NCBI RefSeq assembly: GCF_010183535.1
Contig: NC_071329.1
Span: forward strand, 1,736,001-1,800,000
Origin: Caenorhabditis remanei
Lineage: Eukaryota > Nematoda > Chromadorea > Rhabditida > Rhabditidae
Length of the DNA: 64,000 bases
Direction: 5' to 3'
Below are positions 35,143-44,651 of the stretch, piece after piece. A model generated the notes under the pieces. The model ran no database searches, was not told the origin of the DNA, and worked only from the letters and a program-made list of their open reading frames with translations. Both the position numbers and the translations under genes were made by a program. The stretch's first letter is position 1. The number at the start of each line of letters is the position of its first letter.

Positions 35143-38100
35143 ATGGCGTCGTCAAGTTCCAGTGAAAATGTGAGTTTTTCGGTGGGTTGTCAAAAAAACT
35201 TTTTAAAAAAAATAATTCCAGCCAGATGTCAACGTGGCAGCTCGAGAACACATTCTTGCAATGCTCTCAGCTACCGGATATCATCGAGCACGAGTTGCGA
35301 TTCTCAATGATTATGATAGAGTGAGAAATTGAAAATTTTTATTTAAAAAAAAAAATTTTTTTCAAAATTTTTTTTAGATGGTCGGTGGAATCGCGTGGGC
35401 GATCACACGATTTGATGACGTGGCGGTGGCAGCGAATCTTCTTTACGAAGAGTCGAATGATCAGAATATTAAGCTAAGAACGTAAGTTTGTGGACATCTG
35501 GACACAGAAAATAGCAAAAATGCGTGGGAAATGAAGAATTTTTGATCTAAAAACGAGATTTTCTGGTCGTTTTTTGTGTTTAAACAAGTTTTGTCTGTGA
35601 AATCTAAGAAATTTCGCAAAAAATTGGAAAAAAAAATGTGAAAAGAGATAAAATGGACCTTAAATGAGATATCAGACACACAGATAGACGGACGTCTAGG
35701 CCATAATGGAGAGAATTATGAATTTCGACTGAAAATCGAACAGAAATAGTTAAAATGTCATGAAAAATTGAATTTTTTCGGTGAAAACCACATTTTGACA
35801 CACATAATGAATATTTTTCACGAAAATAACGGTTAAAAAGTCGAAAAGTTTCTCAAAACTTTAGAAATATAGTATTCTCATCATCCGGACACACAGACAC
35901 ACATTATTAATAAGTTTTATGCTGAAAAATCGAAATTATTGTCAAAAATTTAATTTTTTGGAGAAAAATTCAAAAATCTGTAGTTTTTGGTACTTTTTGA
36001 CTGAAAAATGCGAAAAATTTCAAAAACAGAGCTGAAAATTGATTTTTTGACTGAAAAACCAAGAAAAATATGTTTTTCAGTAAAAAAAATGCTGAAGATA
36101 ATCATTTTCAGCTGTAAAAAACTGAAAATTTTGAAAAACCCCTCGAAAATTGGTTAGAATTCAATTGCAGCGACTTTTTAACGGAAAAACGCCTAAAATT
36201 CGAAAAAATGAGCTGAAAATAGATATTTCGAGTGACAAAAACCAAGAAAAAAGAGTTTTTCAGTCAAAAAATGCTGAAAAACGTGATTTTGAGCTCTAAA
36301 TAATAGGAAATTTTGAAAAATCCCTCGAAAATTGGCTACAAATTCAATTTTTCTTGGTCATTAAAAACCCTGAGAATGAGGTTAAAAATGCACTGTTTTC
36401 AAAAAAAACGTATCTATTTTTTACCAATTTTTTTGAAATTTTACATTAAAAAATTTCAATTTTTTGATGCATAACTAGCTTCTGATTGAATTCTCCAGTA
36501 TAGTCAAAAATCCGACATTTTTGGGAAAAAAATTCAAAAAAATTCAAATTTTCGGTCAAATTTTCGTTCAAAATTTCAAAACCCCGATTATTGCAGTGAA
36601 CAAAGTGAGAAGATAATCGAAGCGCTCACCGCTGTCGGTTGCCCCCATCAAATCTCCGCCCACCAACTATTCGGTCTCGACTATCCGGCGATCAAGAATG
36701 TTCTCCAATGGCTTCTTCGAAAAGTGGTCACTCAGAGTTGTCAGGAACGACAACAGAATAAATTCCGCGAGTGGTTCTCAATGAATCATTATAAACAGAA
36801 GGGAAACGAGCAGAAGACGTTGACGACGTTCAGAGAAGGATTGAAAGCGTCGAGACGGTTGAATACGACGAGGAATATGAAACGATTCGATCCGGCGATT
36901 ATGTTTGATTTGACGTTGGATGCGAAGTGTACGCTGGCGGAGTATACGATTTATAGGAGAACGGGCGAGAGGTTTTATCCGGATGAGCAGATGAAAGAGT
37001 GGATTGATGAGAAGATTCGGAGAGAAGTGGGGGACGGTGACAATTTACAGGTAAGAGGAAGACATCTGGACGCGTGGAAATCTGGAAATCTGGATGTATG
37101 AAAAATGTGAAAAGCTGAGAGACATGCGAGATCTCAGGATCTGAAAATCGCTCCGTATGATTCACGGACATCCGGACATACAGATCAGAGTTGTCTGGAA
37201 TCCGGATTTCGAAATTCCGGAATTCCGGGTTTTTCGGCATTCCGGATTCCGAAATTCCGGGTTTTTTCGGCATTGCGGATTCCGAAATTCCGGAATTCCG
37301 GGTTTTTTCGGCATTCCGGATACCGAAATTCCGGAATTCCGGGTTTTTTCGGCAGTCCGGTTCCGGTTCCGGATTCCGGGTTTTTTCGGCAGTCCGGTTC
37401 CGGTTCCGGATTCCGGGTTTTTTCGGCATTCCGGATTCCGAAATTCCGGGTTTTTTCGGCATTCCGGATTCCGAAATTCCGGAATTCTGGGTTTTTCGGC
37501 ATTCCGGATTCCGAAATTCCGGAATTCCGGGTTTTTTCGGCATTCCGGATTCCGGAATTCCGGGTTTTTTCGGCATTCCGGATTCCGAAATTCCGGAATT
37601 CCGGGTTTTTCGGCATTCCGGATTCCGAAATTCCGGAATTCCGGGTTTTTTCGGCATTCCGGATTCCGAAATTCCGGAATTCCGGGTTTTTCGGCATTCC
37701 GGATTCCGAAATTCCGGAATTCCGGGTTTTTCGGCATTCCGGATTCCGAAATTCCGGAATTCCGGGTTTTTTCCAGACTTGTCAAAAATCGGGCCGGGCC
37801 GGGCCGAAATTTCTCTTGGCCCGGTCTGGCCGGATTCAAAAATGGGAACCCGTTTTTACCAAATTTTATTTGAAATTTTTAGAAAAAGTAGAGTAAAAAT
37901 GCTTAAATTATCATACATATTCACATTTTTCAGAAAATTTCAAGAAATTCCAAAAAAATTCAAAAACTCAAAATGTTTCAAAACGAGCCGAGCGGGCCGG
38001 GCCGAGATTTTTCCTGATTTCGGCCCGGCACGGCCCGGCCCGGCCCGGCCCGTGACAAGTCTGGTTTTTTCGGCATTCCGGATTCCGAAATTCCGGAATT

Positions 38101-41100
38101 CCGGGTTTTTCGGCATTCCGGATTCCGGTTCCGAATTCCGGTTTTTTGAGTTTCCTTTTTCCGGAATCCAGAAGTTGAAATTTTGAAACACTCGAAAAAA
38201 TGACATGGCCTTGCAAATTTATCGAATCATTCCGGATTCCGAAATTCCGGATTTCGAAATTCCGGTATTCCGGGTTTTTTCGGCATTCCGATTCCGGATT
38301 CCGAATTTCGAAATTTTCATTCCGATTCCGGATGCATGAAAGTAAAGAATTTTTGTGCGAAAAACAGGATTTCTTAGTGGTGTTTTGAGTTCAAACGAGA
38401 CTTGTTCATGAAATTCACTAAATTTCGCAAAAAAATTCGGAAAAAAATGCAAAAATACAGAAAAATAAAAGACATCCGGATAGATAGGCACAATCTAAAA
38501 TCCGCTGAAGGACTAATGAAAATTGATTTAAAAAATTTTATGAAAAATCTTTTTTTATTCGATAAAAACCTCATTTTGAGTGAGATATCTGGACGTCTGG
38601 ACACATATAATGAATATTTTTACAAAAAAACAGAAAAAAGTTGAGAAATTTATTATTATGATCATCCGGGTACCTGGACACACAGATACACATTATAATT
38701 GTGTTTTAGCCTGAAAATTATCGACTTTTTTTTTGAAAAATAGCTGGAAATCGCTGGAAATCTGACTAAAATCTGTTTTTTTTTCTGATTTATGGTATCA
38801 TTTACTTGTTCACCTTCTTAGAAATGTATCCGCGTGGCCGAGTAGTCCAAGGCGGCGGTCTCTGCGCAAAGAGCGCAAGTTCGATTTTGGGCCCGGCCGC
38901 CTTTCTTTCTCATTTCTCAAAATTTGCGGACATTGGGACAGATGGACAGACTCCCCATGCGTTTTATATATAAGAATGATTTATAACTATTTCCCAGCTG
39001 TTTTAGAAGAGACTCACGATGATTTTCAGCCTAAAACATATTTAAAATGTGTATCTGTGTGCTCAAGTGTCCGGATGTTCAGAATTGTAAATTTCTTGAG
39101 TTTTGGCTCTTGTTCAAAAATCAATATTCCGCCTATTTCCAGGAGTCGTCCGCCAAGCGATTCGTTCAATCAAGTACCGCCCGTCAACTAATGGAACAGG
39201 CGGTCCATGTGACATATAAAAACGAGCCTCCAATGCATACAGCACTCCGTTTGAGTATGGCCAAGACACTCGACTCATTCCAAATCCCTCAACATCTCGA
39301 AATTCTCGAAAATCGAATTGTCGACGAGGCGGCCGAATTCCAGAGGACACAAATCGAGCACGAGCAACTCTATCAGAAATATTCGACCGTTTTGAACTTT
39401 TCCGATGAAAACGAGAAGATGTACGTTGTGTCATTCATGGCAAATTGAAATGCGTGCGGCAAAGTTGCAGAAAAGTGGGCGGAGTCTAGCGCGCGCAGAT
39501 GCATAATTTTTCGCTTTCCAACAAAGTTAGGATTTTCGTGACTTTTGGGACTTTGAATTCACAAAATCTTCATATTTACCATGAAATTGGCTCCGCCCAC
39601 TTTTAAACCACACCCATTTTTGCATGTTTGAGACAAACTTTCGATTTTTGCCAGAAAAATCGTAATTGTGGAAAAGTGGGCGTGGTCTACAATGGGCGAA
39701 GTGTTAAATTTCTGAATTATGGAATAAAATCAAAATTAGGCTCCGCCCACTTTTAGGACATTTTATATTTTCGAAGAATGGGCGTGGTTTCATGCTTCAA
39801 AAATGATAGTTTTCAATTTCAGAAAATAAGGCTCCGCCCACTTTTAGGTCACGCCCATTTTCGCATTTCCGACAAATTTTCCAGCCCAAAATGGTCACAG
39901 TTTTGATGAAAAATTGAAGAAATTTCGAAAAAAAACGTTGGAAAAACGGCTCATTTTTTGAAGCCGGGCCTTGACAACTATGAAAAATAGGTTTTTCTCA
40001 TTTTTTTAGGAGAGGGCAGCATTATTTACTACTGAATTTGCAGATCGGCACGTAGCATGCTCGACATCCTACGTATATTTCAAGAAACGCAACACCGTGC
40101 CGTCGAAATGCGTAATTGGGTGGTGAGAGACCACCAAAAGTGTCGTCGCGAAGAGGAAAGTCTCCGTGTGAATAAGGATGAAGACGGCAATTATCAGGCA
40201 AATACTCATTTACTACCGTACTGCTCATTTGCTACTTCACTTTTCACCATTCTCTTAGGCTTAGGTTTCTTAGAAATTCGGAAAACAATTGCCAAAAACG
40301 AGTTAAAAGGAGACTGCGGTATTCCAAAAATTGAGATTTTTTGATATGAATCGACTCAGAATTTTGTAGAAAACAGAAAAGCCTCTTGGACAGGGTGCTC
40401 CGTTCAAGTTATACAGTATTTTGTCACGTTTCTCGGGCCTCTTTGGCCAGGTGTGCCCTCAGAAACTGTCTTGATGGGTGTCTGAGGCCAGGTGTGCGGG
40501 TTCGGGCTTTTCGGAACAGCTTGCATTATGACCCTAGAAACTGTCTTGATGGGTGTCTGAGGTCAGGTGTGCGGGTTCGGGCCTTTAGGAACAGCTTGCA
40601 TTATGACCCTAGAAACTGTCTTGATAGGGGCTGAGGTCAGGTGTGCGGGTTCGGGCCTTTAGGAACAGCTTGCATTATGACCCTAGAAACTGTCTTGATA
40701 GGGGCTGAGGTCAGGTGTGCGGGTTCGGGCCTTTAGGAACAGCTTGCATTATGACCCTAGAAACTGTCTTGATGGGGGCTGAGGTCAGGTGTGCGGGTTC
40801 GGGCCTTTAGGAACAGCTTGCATTATGACCCTAGAAACTGTCTTGATAGGGGCTGAGGTCAGGTGTGCGGGTTCGGGCCTTTAGGAACAGCTTGCATTAT
40901 GACCCTAGAAACTGTCTTGATGGGGGCTGAGGTCAGGTGTGCGGGTTCGGGCCTTTAGGAACAGCTTGCATTATGACCCTAGAAACTGTCTTGATGGGGG
41001 CTGAGGTCAGGTGTGCGGGTTCGGGCCTTTAGGAACAGCTTGCATTATGACCCTAGAAACTGTCTTGATAGGGGCTGAGGTCAGGTGTGCGGGTTCGGGC

Positions 41101-44100
41101 CTTTAGGAACAGCTTGCATTATGACCCTAGAAACTGTCTTGATAGGGGCTGAGGTCAGGTGTGCGGGTTCGGGCCTTTAGGAACAGCTTGCATTATGACC
41201 CTAGAAACTGTCTTGATAGGGGCTGAGGTCAGGTGTGCGGGTTCGGGCCTTTAGGAACAGCTTGCATTATGACCCTAGAAACTGTCTTGATAGGGGCTGA
41301 GGTCAGGTGTGCGGGTTCGGGCCTTTAGGAACAGCTTGCATTATGACCCTAGAAACTGTCTTGATAGGGGCTGAGGTCAGGTGTGCGGGTTCGGGCCTTT
41401 AGGAACAGCTTGCATTATGACCCTAGAAACTGTCTTGATAGGGGCTGAGGTCAGGTGTGCGGGTTCGGGCCTTTAGGAACAGCTTGCATTATGACCCTAG
41501 AAACTGTCTTGATGGGGGCTGAGGTCAGGTGTGCGGGTTCGGGCCTATAGGAACAGCTTGCATTATGACCCTAGAAACTGTCTTAATGGGGGCTGAGGTC
41601 AGGTGTGCGGGTTCGGGCCTATAGGAACAGCTTGCATTATGACCCTAGAAACTGTCTTGATGGGGGCTGAGGTCAGGTGTGCGGGTTCGGGCCTTTAGGA
41701 ACAGCTTGCATTATGACCCTAGAAACTGTCTTGATAGGGGCTGAGGTCAGGTGTGCGGGTTCGGGCCTTTAGGAACAGCTTGCATTATGACCCTAGAAAC
41801 TGTCTTGATAGGGGCTGAGGTCAGGTGTGCGGGTTCGGGCCTTTAGGAACAGCTTGCATTATGACCCTAGAAACTGTCTTGATAGGGGCTGAGGTCAGGT
41901 GTGCGGGTTCGGGCCTTTAGGAACAGCTTGCATTATGACCCTAGAAACTGTCTTGATGGGGGCTGAGGTCAGGTGTGCGGGTTCGGGCCTATAGGAACAG
42001 CTTGCATTATGACCCTAGAAACTGTCTTAATGGGGGCTGAGGTCAGGTGTGCGGGTTCGGGCCTATAGGAACAGCTTGCATTATGACCCTAGAAACTGTC
42101 TTGATGGGGGCTGAGGTCAGGTGTGCGGGTTCGGGCCTTTAGGAACAGCTTGCATTATGACCCTAGAAACTGTCTTAATGGGGGCTGAGGTCAGGTGTGC
42201 GGGTTCGGGCCTTTAGGAACAGCTTGCATTATGACCCTAGAAGGTGATACTGACCCAGCTTCGAAAAGTGAAGTAGCAAATTAGCAGTACGGTAGTAAAT
42301 GAGTAAAAAGTAGTAAACGAGCAATTAATAGTAAATGAGTAGGTAGTAAATGAGTATTTGCCTCATTTTCAGAAGTATTGTGCCTATAAGAGAGAGATAA
42401 TGGAGCAATACGCGGTGAAGACGCGTCTCGCCGCCGAGGTACTTCGAGAGGTGCTCACACTTCAGTTCCGATTGGATCGAATCATGTCAAGTGTGCTGAC
42501 GTCTCACCAGACGAGACGAAATATGGAACAGATTCACAATTCTGCACAGTTGACGCAGGAGGCGAAAAAGGCGGTTATCGATTATAATGTGACTGTGGAT
42601 ATTATGAAGTTTAATACGAGAATATCGGATTTCGCGAACGAAGTGGAGAGGAGTATGAAGATTGAGTGAGTTTGAGGGACAAAATGTCCAAAAATCGGTT
42701 ATTTTGGGACATCCGGACTGGCAATAGCACAGACAGCCTTAGAATATCATACTTGTCAACCGGGCCGAAACGGGCCGAAACGGGCCGACACGGGCCGGCG
42801 CGTAACTCGCGTCAAAATGAATATTATGAGCTGAAAAAACTACCAAAATGTAGATCTCAGCGAGTTCTATGTCCGTGGCCTACTACGGGCCGGATGGCTA
42901 TTCGTTAATGTGCCGCGTGCCGGGAAAAAGTGCCAAAAAACGCGAAAATGGCCAAAAAGCCATTCTAGCCCGGCCCGCGGCACATTAACGAATAGCCATC
43001 CGGCCCGTAGTAGGTCACGGACATAGAACTCGGCGAGATCTACATTTTGGTATATTTTTCAGCTCATAGTATTGCGTTTTAAGCGAGTTACGAGCCGGCC
43101 CGTGTCGGCCCGTTTCGGCCCGGTTGACAAGTATGTAGAATATCATCGAAATCGGTATAAAATTAAGAGGCGTGGCCTACATACTTGCAAAATATCGGCC
43201 AAGCCCGGCTCGGCCCGGAGTCAAAAAATGAGCACAATTTTTTCACAAAATTTTCGAAATTTTTTGAATTTATCATCAAAAATAGTCAAAAATCCTATGT
43301 ACACTTGAGTTTTATCGATATGTAAAAACATAGCCGAAAATTTGACTTTTTTGCGAAAAAATCAAAAAATTTTCAAATTTTTGTACTGTGACCCGGGCTG
43401 ACCGGGCCGGGCCGGTGAAAATTCTCAAATCGGCCCGGCCCGACCCGTTGCAAGTATGGTGGCCTAGAATCCGGCAACTCGGTCATCTTTGAGTGTACTT
43501 TTGAGCGTTTTTTGGCTGAAACGGAAATTTGAATTTTATTATATTTTTAAATGATTTTCAGCGCTTGTTGTTGTTTTTCCGAAAGATATATGAAAAATCG
43601 CTTGAAATCATTGAAAAATTTGACAAAATTCAAATTTCCTCCCCAAAATATTACGGTAGCACTCGTTTCAGCTGTGTTGAGGGACATCAATTTTTTGGCG
43701 CGATATCATGATGGCCGAGTTGTCGGATTCTAGGCCAGCACTCTCTTTTTTGGGCGGGTCGGTGCGGGTTTGCAATAAAAAAATTTCTATTTTTTCGATT
43801 TTTTTTTTCAAAAAAATAGAATTTTCGACAGTTTTTTTTCAAATTTCAATAAAAAGTCAAATGTCCATAGCCGAGTTGCGCGGAAGTGATTTTTTCTAAA
43901 ACGGAAGTCGGAAGTAAAATTTTGAAAACGGAAGTCGGAAGTCGGAAATAAAATTTTGAAAACGGAAGTCGGAAGCCGGAAGTCGGAAGTAGATTTTTTC
44001 GCAAAAAATTCAAAAACTTCTAGAAAAAGTTTATAAAATTCGCGAAAATCAGTGAAAAATTAGTTTTTGGCTGTCGAAAAGCCTATTTTCTTTCCTGTTA

Positions 44101-44651
44101 GACCATTTTTCCTTGTATTTCTGCAAAATATACTTTTCGGAAATTCCACAATTATGGAATGACGGAAGTCGGAAGTAAACATCCGAAAACGGAAGTCGGA
44201 AGTGAAAAACAGCCCGGAAGTCTCCGCGCAACTCTGGTCCATAAGTTTTTTGACTAGTTTTGAAAAAAAACCGAAAAATTTCGAACATTTTTGTGAAAAT
44301 AGCCTAAATTCCCGCTAAAAAGCACCAATTTGCAGACCATCCACTCAAGAATACCGTGACGCATTCGTCTCCTACATGAACGACGTCCGCATCCAACTTG
44401 CCGAATATCACTGGAAAGCGAAAATCACTCAGGACAAATCGATCGCCGAGAAAGAGGCGTTGGCTCAGTTGCGAGTGGCGATTCGGGCGAAAGAGCGTGA
44501 AGTGTCGTTCACTTCGTACGAGTTGAAGAAGGTGCTCGCGGTGAATGCAGTACTTCAGAAGACGTGTAACCAGTTGTTGGATCTCGAGGATAGATCACCG
44601 GCATATCAGCGTGCGGTGGCGAGAAAGGCGGCGCAGTTGGCGAAATCTTGA
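35143..44651 (+). CDS. ccdc-93: CCDC93 homologue (CCC/Commander complex subunit)
   Basis: Exons 35143-35169, 35222-35320, 35378-35481, 36597-37050, 39143-39420, 40044-40197, 42373-42665, 44336-44651; phases agree; 574 residues (human CCDC93 is about 630). The N-terminal region matches CCDC93: GYHRARVAILNDYDRMVGGI and GCPHQISAHQLFGLDY followed by VLQWLLRKV align with the family's CPHQLEPHQIQG...VVQWLVKR motif of the NN-CH domain. The rest is coiled coil. CCDC93 works with COMMD proteins and CCDC22 on endosomes in membrane-protein recycling (family knowledge). Exon 6 ends at a GC donor (40198-40199) at the edge of a transposon, and exon 7 begins just after that transposon. The position next to a gpa-11-like gene agrees with my recollection of C. 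elegans C16A11.2 beside C16A11.1. The family call is firm; the symbol is my inference. Confidence 0.88.
37195..37773 (+). repeat. 41-bp tandem repeat (TTCCGGAATTCCGGG)
   Basis: About 13 units built from GGCATTCCGGATTCCGAAAT, TCCGGAATTCCGGGTTTTTT and shorter variants. The array resumes after the MITE, at about 38064-38140 and 38225-38335. It is in intron 4 of the CCDC93 gene. Every frame is open on both strands because the unit lacks stops, which creates false reading frames. Confidence 0.85.
37774..38063. mobile_element. hAT-type MITE inside the tandem array (290 bp)
   Basis: Ends CAGACTTGTC and GACAAGTCTG. Perfect 8-bp target duplications GTTTTTTC at 37766-37773 and 38064-38071, taken from the repeat unit. 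The body is GC-rich like the CATACTTG family. Confidence 0.88.
38797..38980 (+). repeat. tRNA-derived repeat element (Ser/Leu-like), copy 2
   Basis: 184 bp, plus strand, almost identical to 27784-27966. A-box-like TGGCCGAGTAG at 38835-38845 (one change) and B-box-like GTTCGATTTTG at 38879-38889. Ends ATCATT / AATGAT. It lies in intron 4 of the CCDC93 gene. Confidence 0.65.
39470..39982. repeat. CTCCGCCCACTTTTA repeats and MITE half in CCDC93 intron 5
   Basis: GGCTCCGCCCACTTTTA or its complement occurs about six times between 39473 and 39860. About 39885-39982 is the right half of the CATAGTTGT element described at 19529-19742. Confidence 0.55.
40197..42362. mobile_element. TIR transposon forming an intron in the CCDC93 gene (2166 bp)
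   Basis: Perfect 20-bp inverted ends GGCAAATACTCATTTACTAC, extended by imperfect inverted sequence (CCGTACTGCT...GCTACTTCACTTTTC). 3-bp direct repeats TCA at 40194-40196 and 42363-42365, a size seen in PIF/Harbinger-type elements. The interior is almost entirely a 74-bp satellite; no transposase. Removing the element and one TCA joins the two flanking CCDC93 exons in one open frame. Confidence 0.85.
40447..42243 (+). repeat. 74-bp satellite array, about 24 copies
   Basis: Unit: GACCCTAGAAACTGTCTTGA, TAGGGGCTGAGGTCAGGTGT, GCGGGTTCGGGCCTTTAGGA, ACAGCTTGCATTAT. Spacing is 74 bp from about 40670 onward. Units are nearly identical, with alternating TAGGGG/TGGGGG and CCTTTA/CCTATA variants that suggest multi-unit duplications. 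The first units are more diverged. Confidence 0.95.
42748..43134. mobile_element. hAT-type MITE, CATACTTG family (387 bp)
   Basis: Ends CATACTTGTCAACCGGGCC and inverse. Perfect 8-bp target duplications TAGAATAT at 42740-42747 and 43135-43142. Near-perfect foldback centred on GGCCAAAAAGCC. In CCDC93 intron 7. Confidence 0.93.
43179..43458. mobile_element. hAT-type MITE, CATACTTG family (280 bp), nested
   Basis: Ends CATACTTGC and GCAAGTATG. Perfect 8-bp target duplications GTGGCCTA at 43171-43178 and 43459-43466. It interrupts a CCTAGGATCCG-type foldback whose parts continue to about 43740. Confidence 0.92.
43871..44236. mobile_element. hAT-type MITE, CAGAGTTG family (366 bp)
   Basis: Ends CCGAGTTGCGCGGAAGT and CCGCGCAACTCTG. 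Target duplications GTCCATAG (43863-43870) and GTCCATAA (44237-44244), one mismatch. The body is GGAAGTCGGAAGT repeats on both sides of an AT-rich core. Confidence 0.85.

Follow-up and report, generated by a model that had tools for sequence, protein, structure and literature searches.

The 64,000-nucleotide window analyzed here, positions 1,736,001 to 1,800,000 of chromosome II (contig C2) of the Caenorhabditis remanei PX506 genome (130.5 Mb in total), contains GCK72_003962, a gene of the CCDC93 family in which a transposon lies between two coding exons. The top protein match of the window is this C. remanei protein (100% after rounding, the query carrying two extra residues), and the spliced exons translate letter for letter to the deposited sequence, here termed P0001. 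The gene carries a Pfam match to CCDC93_N (1.7e-12), and its best match among solved structures is CCDC93 of PDB 8f2u, over a short stretch only. When the genome was searched for another copy of the gene, or another allele, only the two exons at the window locus itself were returned. Six of the seven introns are GT-AG. The single GC-AG intron, 40198-42372, is 2175 nt long, interrupts the reading frame in phase 0, and holds the transposon.

An earlier note on this DNA had described an element with perfect inverted ends at this place and had proposed that it created the intron. The element is real, and its ends form perfect inverted repeats of 21 bp by inspection. As had also been recognized, it lies between two in-frame coding exons, with CAG|GC (40195-40199) at its left edge and TTTTCAG|AAG (42366-42375) to its right. 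Its first 20 bases have 50 forward and 51 reverse matches in the C. remanei genome with at most one mismatch, and its left arm resembles short copies similar to miniature inverted-repeat transposable elements (matches of 84-97% across some 100 bp, most of them exceeding 90%). Most of the element is a tandem array of a 74-bp unit. This unit also forms an array of about 5 kb on contig C4 (23.346-23.351 Mb) and occurs as short pieces on C2, C3, and C4; ends of the element family were not found in the loci inspected around these other occurrences. The Mutator-like element (MULE) transposase domain PF10551 has six matches in the genome, and within about 1.5 kb on each side of these loci the only resemblance to the element's ends was a 14-base look-alike with two mismatches, seen at three of the six.

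Table 1. Features of the C. remanei CCDC93 locus, in window coordinates.
Feature	Position	Strand	Basis
Coding span, 8 exons, 574 codons	35143..44648	+	Exact mapping of P0001; Pfam CCDC93_N
Exons of GCK72_003962	35143-35169, 35222-35320, 35378-35481, 36597-37050, 39143-39420, 40044-40197, 42373-42665, 44336-44648	+	
Upstream coding exon, CCDC93 orthologue	40044..40197	+	P0001 mapping, protein alignment
Competing GT donor GTGAGA, in frame; drops 25 residues	40123..40128	+	Donor ranking; fits PB4641 model junction
Competing GT donor GTGAAT, in frame; would drop 10 residues	40168..40173	+	Donor ranking
Left copy of inferred 9-bp duplication, CAATTATCA	40188..40196	+	9-bp family rule; 6/9 match to right copy
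MULE-like transposon (non-autonomous; 2166 bp) with inverted ends GGCAAATACTCATTTACTACC	40197..42362	.	End repeats, genome-wide end matches, copy survey
Donor GCAAAT, element bases 2-7; element base 1 (G 40197) is last exon base	40198..40203	+	P0001 mapping; donor ranking
Tandem array within element, 74-bp unit x 24.1	40456..42242	+	Repeat analysis; 97% like array on C4
Right copy of inferred 9-bp duplication, TCATTTTCA, followed by host G 42372	42363..42371	+	9-bp family rule
Acceptor TTTTCAG	42366..42372	+	Best of 172 AG sites in 40250-42420; used by P0001
Downstream coding exon, CCDC93 orthologue	42373..42665	+	P0001 mapping, protein alignment

The length of the target-site duplication can be read from other copies of the element. 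We surveyed 28 loci of the main family (20 + 8), sampled from about 100 end matches. One of these was dropped (L051, whose left end was not found), another proved to hold two nested copies (L053; a variant end marks the outer copy), and with the window copy the survey comprises 29 copies. The 9-mers on the two sides of the element are identical in 19 of the 29, and the remaining pairs agree at eight of nine positions (two copies), seven (one), six (three, including the window copy), four (one), or two (three). Among ten further copies with one-base variants of the terminal inverted repeat, eight have perfect 9-bp flanks. The family duplicates 9 bp of its target, as is typical of MULEs, and not the three bases TCA that had been taken for the duplication at this site.

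The three copies with two matching positions (L056, L057, and L065) share identical flanking sequence, inverted in one of them, an arrangement suggesting that a larger segment was duplicated and not that the copies inserted separately. The two variant copies lacking perfect flanks (L083 and L093, at C5 1,834,629 and 1,846,327) lie about 10 kb apart and have one 9-mer in common across their outer ends, as though a single larger insertion had been rearranged and ended in both.

When the 9-bp rule is applied to the window copy, the flanks are the left and right 9-mers of Table 1. We infer that these represent a diverged duplication with TCA as its tail. The left 9-mer is still exonic, comprising the last base of a Gly codon, the Asn and Tyr codons, and the CA of a Gln codon, whereas the right 9-mer now belongs to the 3′ end of the intron. 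The intron consists of the element minus its first base, the right 9-mer, and the host G, and no base of an older intron remains on either side of this unit. Its boundaries coincide with the element plus its duplication, as is characteristic of a transposon-derived spliceosomal intron. The junction is a GC-AG type, CAG|GCAAAT ... TTTTCAG|A, with A rather than G at donor position +5, and the deposited model P0001 uses exactly the GC-AG junction and TTTTCAG acceptor that had been predicted. On the strength of this gene model, the RNA of the animal would be spliced from 40197 to 42373.

A 9-bp duplication that ends just before the host G gives an empty site of the form GG-(9-mer)-G-AAG, which with the left copy reads GGC AAT TAT CAG AAG and encodes Gly-Asn-Tyr-Gln-Lys. 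At this place the proteins of relatives (P0003-P0012) have Gly-Asn-Val-Gln-Lys, Gly-Asn-Ile-Gln-Lys, Gly-Lys-Met-Gln-Lys, Gly-Glu-Leu-Lys-Ser, and similar sequences of equal length, with P0008, P0009, and P0012 identical in this stretch. These ten of the 15 other alignment rows have the length of the GC-AG product, as does P0020, an open reading frame (ORF) described below. Four rows (P0013, P0014, P0016, and P0017) are shorter, hard to align at the junction, and uninformative, and P0002, the older gene model from strain PB4641, skips the stretch. Because the family duplicates 9 bp and close relatives have proteins of equal length, GC-AG splicing would restore the coding sequence exactly, without the loss of two residues that the earlier note had expected.

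It is this homology, rather than the length of the open frame, by which the site counts as an exon. The frame reopened across the rejoined site spans 152 codons, compared with 138 and 172 codons for the 90% and 95% quantiles at random positions. As stand-alone evidence we set it aside, its length being unremarkable and another family copy, L052, reaching 157 codons. Before the junction, 9 of 347 aligned residues distinguish the PX506 protein from that of PB4641, compared with 1 of 202 after it, a pattern in keeping with downstream exons that are still translated.

Among 2140 candidates, a profile search for proteins of exon size yielded one match. This protein, P0020, is an ORF of 228 residues located on one relative's contig of 37,257 bp and is closest to P0004 (65.6% over 209 residues). 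It runs unbroken through the junction (G-N-V-M-K-Y) and beyond and then departs from the family sequence. Judged from the length of the contig and this tail, P0020 appears to be genomic, with the tail resembling intron read-through, and the site may have been free of an intron before the insertion. A further protein search for genomic ORFs returned none among 415 candidates.

The flush geometry, the 9-bp rule of the family, the protein length, and P0020 together lead us to favor, as probable, the view that a MULE-like transposon gave birth to this intron in the C. remanei CCDC93 gene. In the proposed course of events, a non-autonomous element would have entered an uninterrupted CCDC93 coding exon at N8-A^G and duplicated 9 bp. 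The element starts with GGCAAAT. Its first G would take the place of the G of the target, and the bases that follow would provide the GC donor (CAG|GCAAAT). The AG acceptor, today TTTTCAG, would come from the second duplicate of the exon sequence together with the original G. Excision of 40198-42372 from the transcript would then return the coding sequence to its former state. Compared with the introner-type gain put forward earlier, the donor from the element and the acceptor from the host stand as the best reading; what changes is that the duplication measures 9 bp, with the acceptor in its second copy, and that restoration would be exact.

Several observations weigh against intron birth. 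In P0020 both this intron and the one that follows it in C. remanei (42666-44335) are missing, and the absence may thus be secondary, through a double loss; the comparison with sister species proposed in the earlier note covered this one relative. Intron losses far exceed gains in Caenorhabditis and adjacent losses are frequent, and a ten-species study, not known to include this gene, records in its available text no gains in C. remanei (PMC9169325). According to the same text, of 122 gains claimed previously for nematodes, 28 of which resembled other introns, most were later judged to be losses elsewhere (PMC9169325). The flanking 9-mers are themselves equivocal. Against the six other acceptors of the same gene, the 9-mer at the exon end of this intron matches at 4, 4, 3, 6, 6, and 7 of nine positions. 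Because these acceptors score comparably, the match at six positions is not above the splice-site background of the gene and was rejected as stand-alone evidence. Mismatched left-right pairs drawn between family copies reach at least six of nine in 10% of cases; the left 9-mer of the window does so with one of 28 other right flanks and its right 9-mer with none of 28 left flanks. Three changes in 9 bp are also many for an element whose 21-bp ends are perfect. One point about these 9-mers speaks for birth: if the left copy is nearer the original, the three bases that differ on the right are pyrimidines throughout, and the acceptor goes from a score of 8.6 to one of 12.7. Splice-site scores given here use rough worm weights. 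By these weights, two GT donors upstream of the GC site, both in frame with the same acceptor, score level with or above it (4.4 for GTGAAT at 40168 and 6.9 for GTGAGA at 40123, compared with 4.3), and in P0002, the PB4641 model, the exon stops at the place that the donor at 40123 would give.

The strongest alternative, which we consider unlikely yet worth serious attention, is that an older GT-AG intron already separated the Gln and Lys codons. A transposon would then have entered the end of the exon (CA^G|gt) and put its GC in place of the old donor, and the old intron would later have been deleted down to its final bases, TCATTTTCAG. By the worm consensus TTTTCAG is a perfect acceptor and CAG a typical exon end, and splice consensus would account for the six matching flank positions; the excess of losses in the genus and the lack of recorded C. 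remanei gains (PMC9169325) point the same way. This course requires a second event, however, namely a deletion whose start lies no more than a few bases from the end of the element and whose stop lies no more than 10 bases from the acceptor, and P0020 has no intron at the junction.

It is also conceivable, at a distinctly lower probability, that the GC donor is not cleanly used. Transcripts would take the donor at 40123 or 40168 and encode a shorter protein, or run on into the element as far as the stop at 40342, with the deposited model being no more than a prediction. The ranking of GTGAGA above the GC site favors this, as does P0002, which skips 25 residues in the same manner. These donors would nevertheless delete residues invariant in nine sequences (C. 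remanei and eight relatives), the 25 residues missing from P0002 are present in P0003-P0012, the downstream exons are conserved between the strains, and the PX506 model selects the GC site. The choice made by the predictor in PB4641 suggests that this strain, too, has an interruption without GT at the Gln|Lys boundary. The two upstream donors could yield isoforms that lack 25 or 10 residues. An older intron, some 30-36 bases in length and beginning at GTGAAT, placed near 40169 when it was first suggested, would start at 40168 and was rejected, as it would remove N, D, and G, all invariant in the same nine sequences; such a length is very short for an intron. Least credible of all is a 3-bp duplication with TTTTCAG derived from formerly coding His-Phe-Gln and an empty site of TAT CAT TTT CAG AAG, for although TCA is present on both sides, the family duplicates 9 bp and the His-Phe pair occurs in none of the alignable relatives (P0003-P0012 and P0020).

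Insertion between an A and a following G, the geometry on which the proposed birth of the intron depends, was found in two of the 29 copies (the window copy and L052) and in none of the ten variant copies. Other copies inside genes, for which the earlier note had suggested a search, were sought through the frames across L052 and four other copies, where no Pfam family scored above its cut-off. Of the 39 copies inspected, only the window copy was shown to lie within a coding exon, and a second intron of this kind was not found, the Pfam homology test being limited to those five other copies.

Two further features lie in other introns of the gene. A long degenerate repeat (ATTCCGGATTCCGAAATTCCGG) occupies 37161-38183, in the intron before exon 39143-39420, with one frame open over 341 codons. 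The intron following the element-bearing one holds a large palindrome at 42748-43135, probably another repeat element. Its 157-nt arms are complementary at 91%, and its outer arms, each of 45 nt, begin CATACTTGTCAACCGGGCC.

The CCDC93 intron can be compared with several known systems. In C. elegans, Tc1 is spliced from the pre-mRNAs of laboratory mutants imprecisely, via nearby cryptic sites. Here, as there, the worm spliceosome would remove a DNA transposon from an exon, whereas the geometry at CCDC93 would give exact restoration. The element shares 9-bp duplications and inverted ends with subterminal repeats with the MULE/Mutator-like elements of Caenorhabditis and differs in that no transposase is tied to its family, as judged at the six PF10551 loci inspected. 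In outcrossing Caenorhabditis species, Mutator elements are stated to reach about double the abundance (PMC10015627).

Introners bring a 5′ splice site with them, and their 3′ site comes from the target duplication; some have GC donors, and the reported families number between 5 and over 2,000 copies in a genome (PMC9860276). The resemblance extends to the intron being a DNA transposon with inverted ends and a target duplication; GC donors and an unchanged mRNA length are recorded there as well (PMC9860276). That account places Introners in two animal groups only, and its main text has no match for nematode or Caenorhabditis (PMC9860276). Unlike Introners, which make many introns per genome, the family studied here has a single inspected copy in a coding exon. 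The CCDC93 element works like an Introner insertion, and membership in an Introner family is not shown, because only one copy is known to be so placed.

Since the ends begin G-GCAAAT, any insertion into coding sequence at N8-A^G would gain a GC donor and an AG acceptor at once. We tentatively raise the further idea, somewhat short of an even chance, that the family is pre-adapted to making seamless introns and that CCDC93 represents a Caenorhabditis gain with its source intact, its acceptor tuned afterwards and isoforms from the upstream GT donors possible. The available text of the Caenorhabditis survey lists 168 gains, all gt-ag and none with a source sequence, and notes that short direct repeats (3-5 bp) are enriched at gained introns (PMC9169325). 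The CCDC93 intron is like these gains in leaving the flanking coding sequence unchanged and unlike them in being GC-AG with a recognizable source element. Among the titles and abstract openings listed by searches of the open-licence PubMed Central literature, none was found to describe a transposon-derived intron of Caenorhabditis.

The origin of new introns is an old question, to which those source-less gains attest. Should an older intron have been taken over instead, the locus would be an example of a transposon substituting for a splice donor and the bulk of an intron, a finding of lesser though real interest. If intron birth is correct, CCDC93 would be a rare animal intron gain with its source still visible, showing the mechanism directly in a genetically tractable animal. 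The geometry would then predict which transposon ends (those starting G-GY) and which sites (N8-A^G) can make introns.

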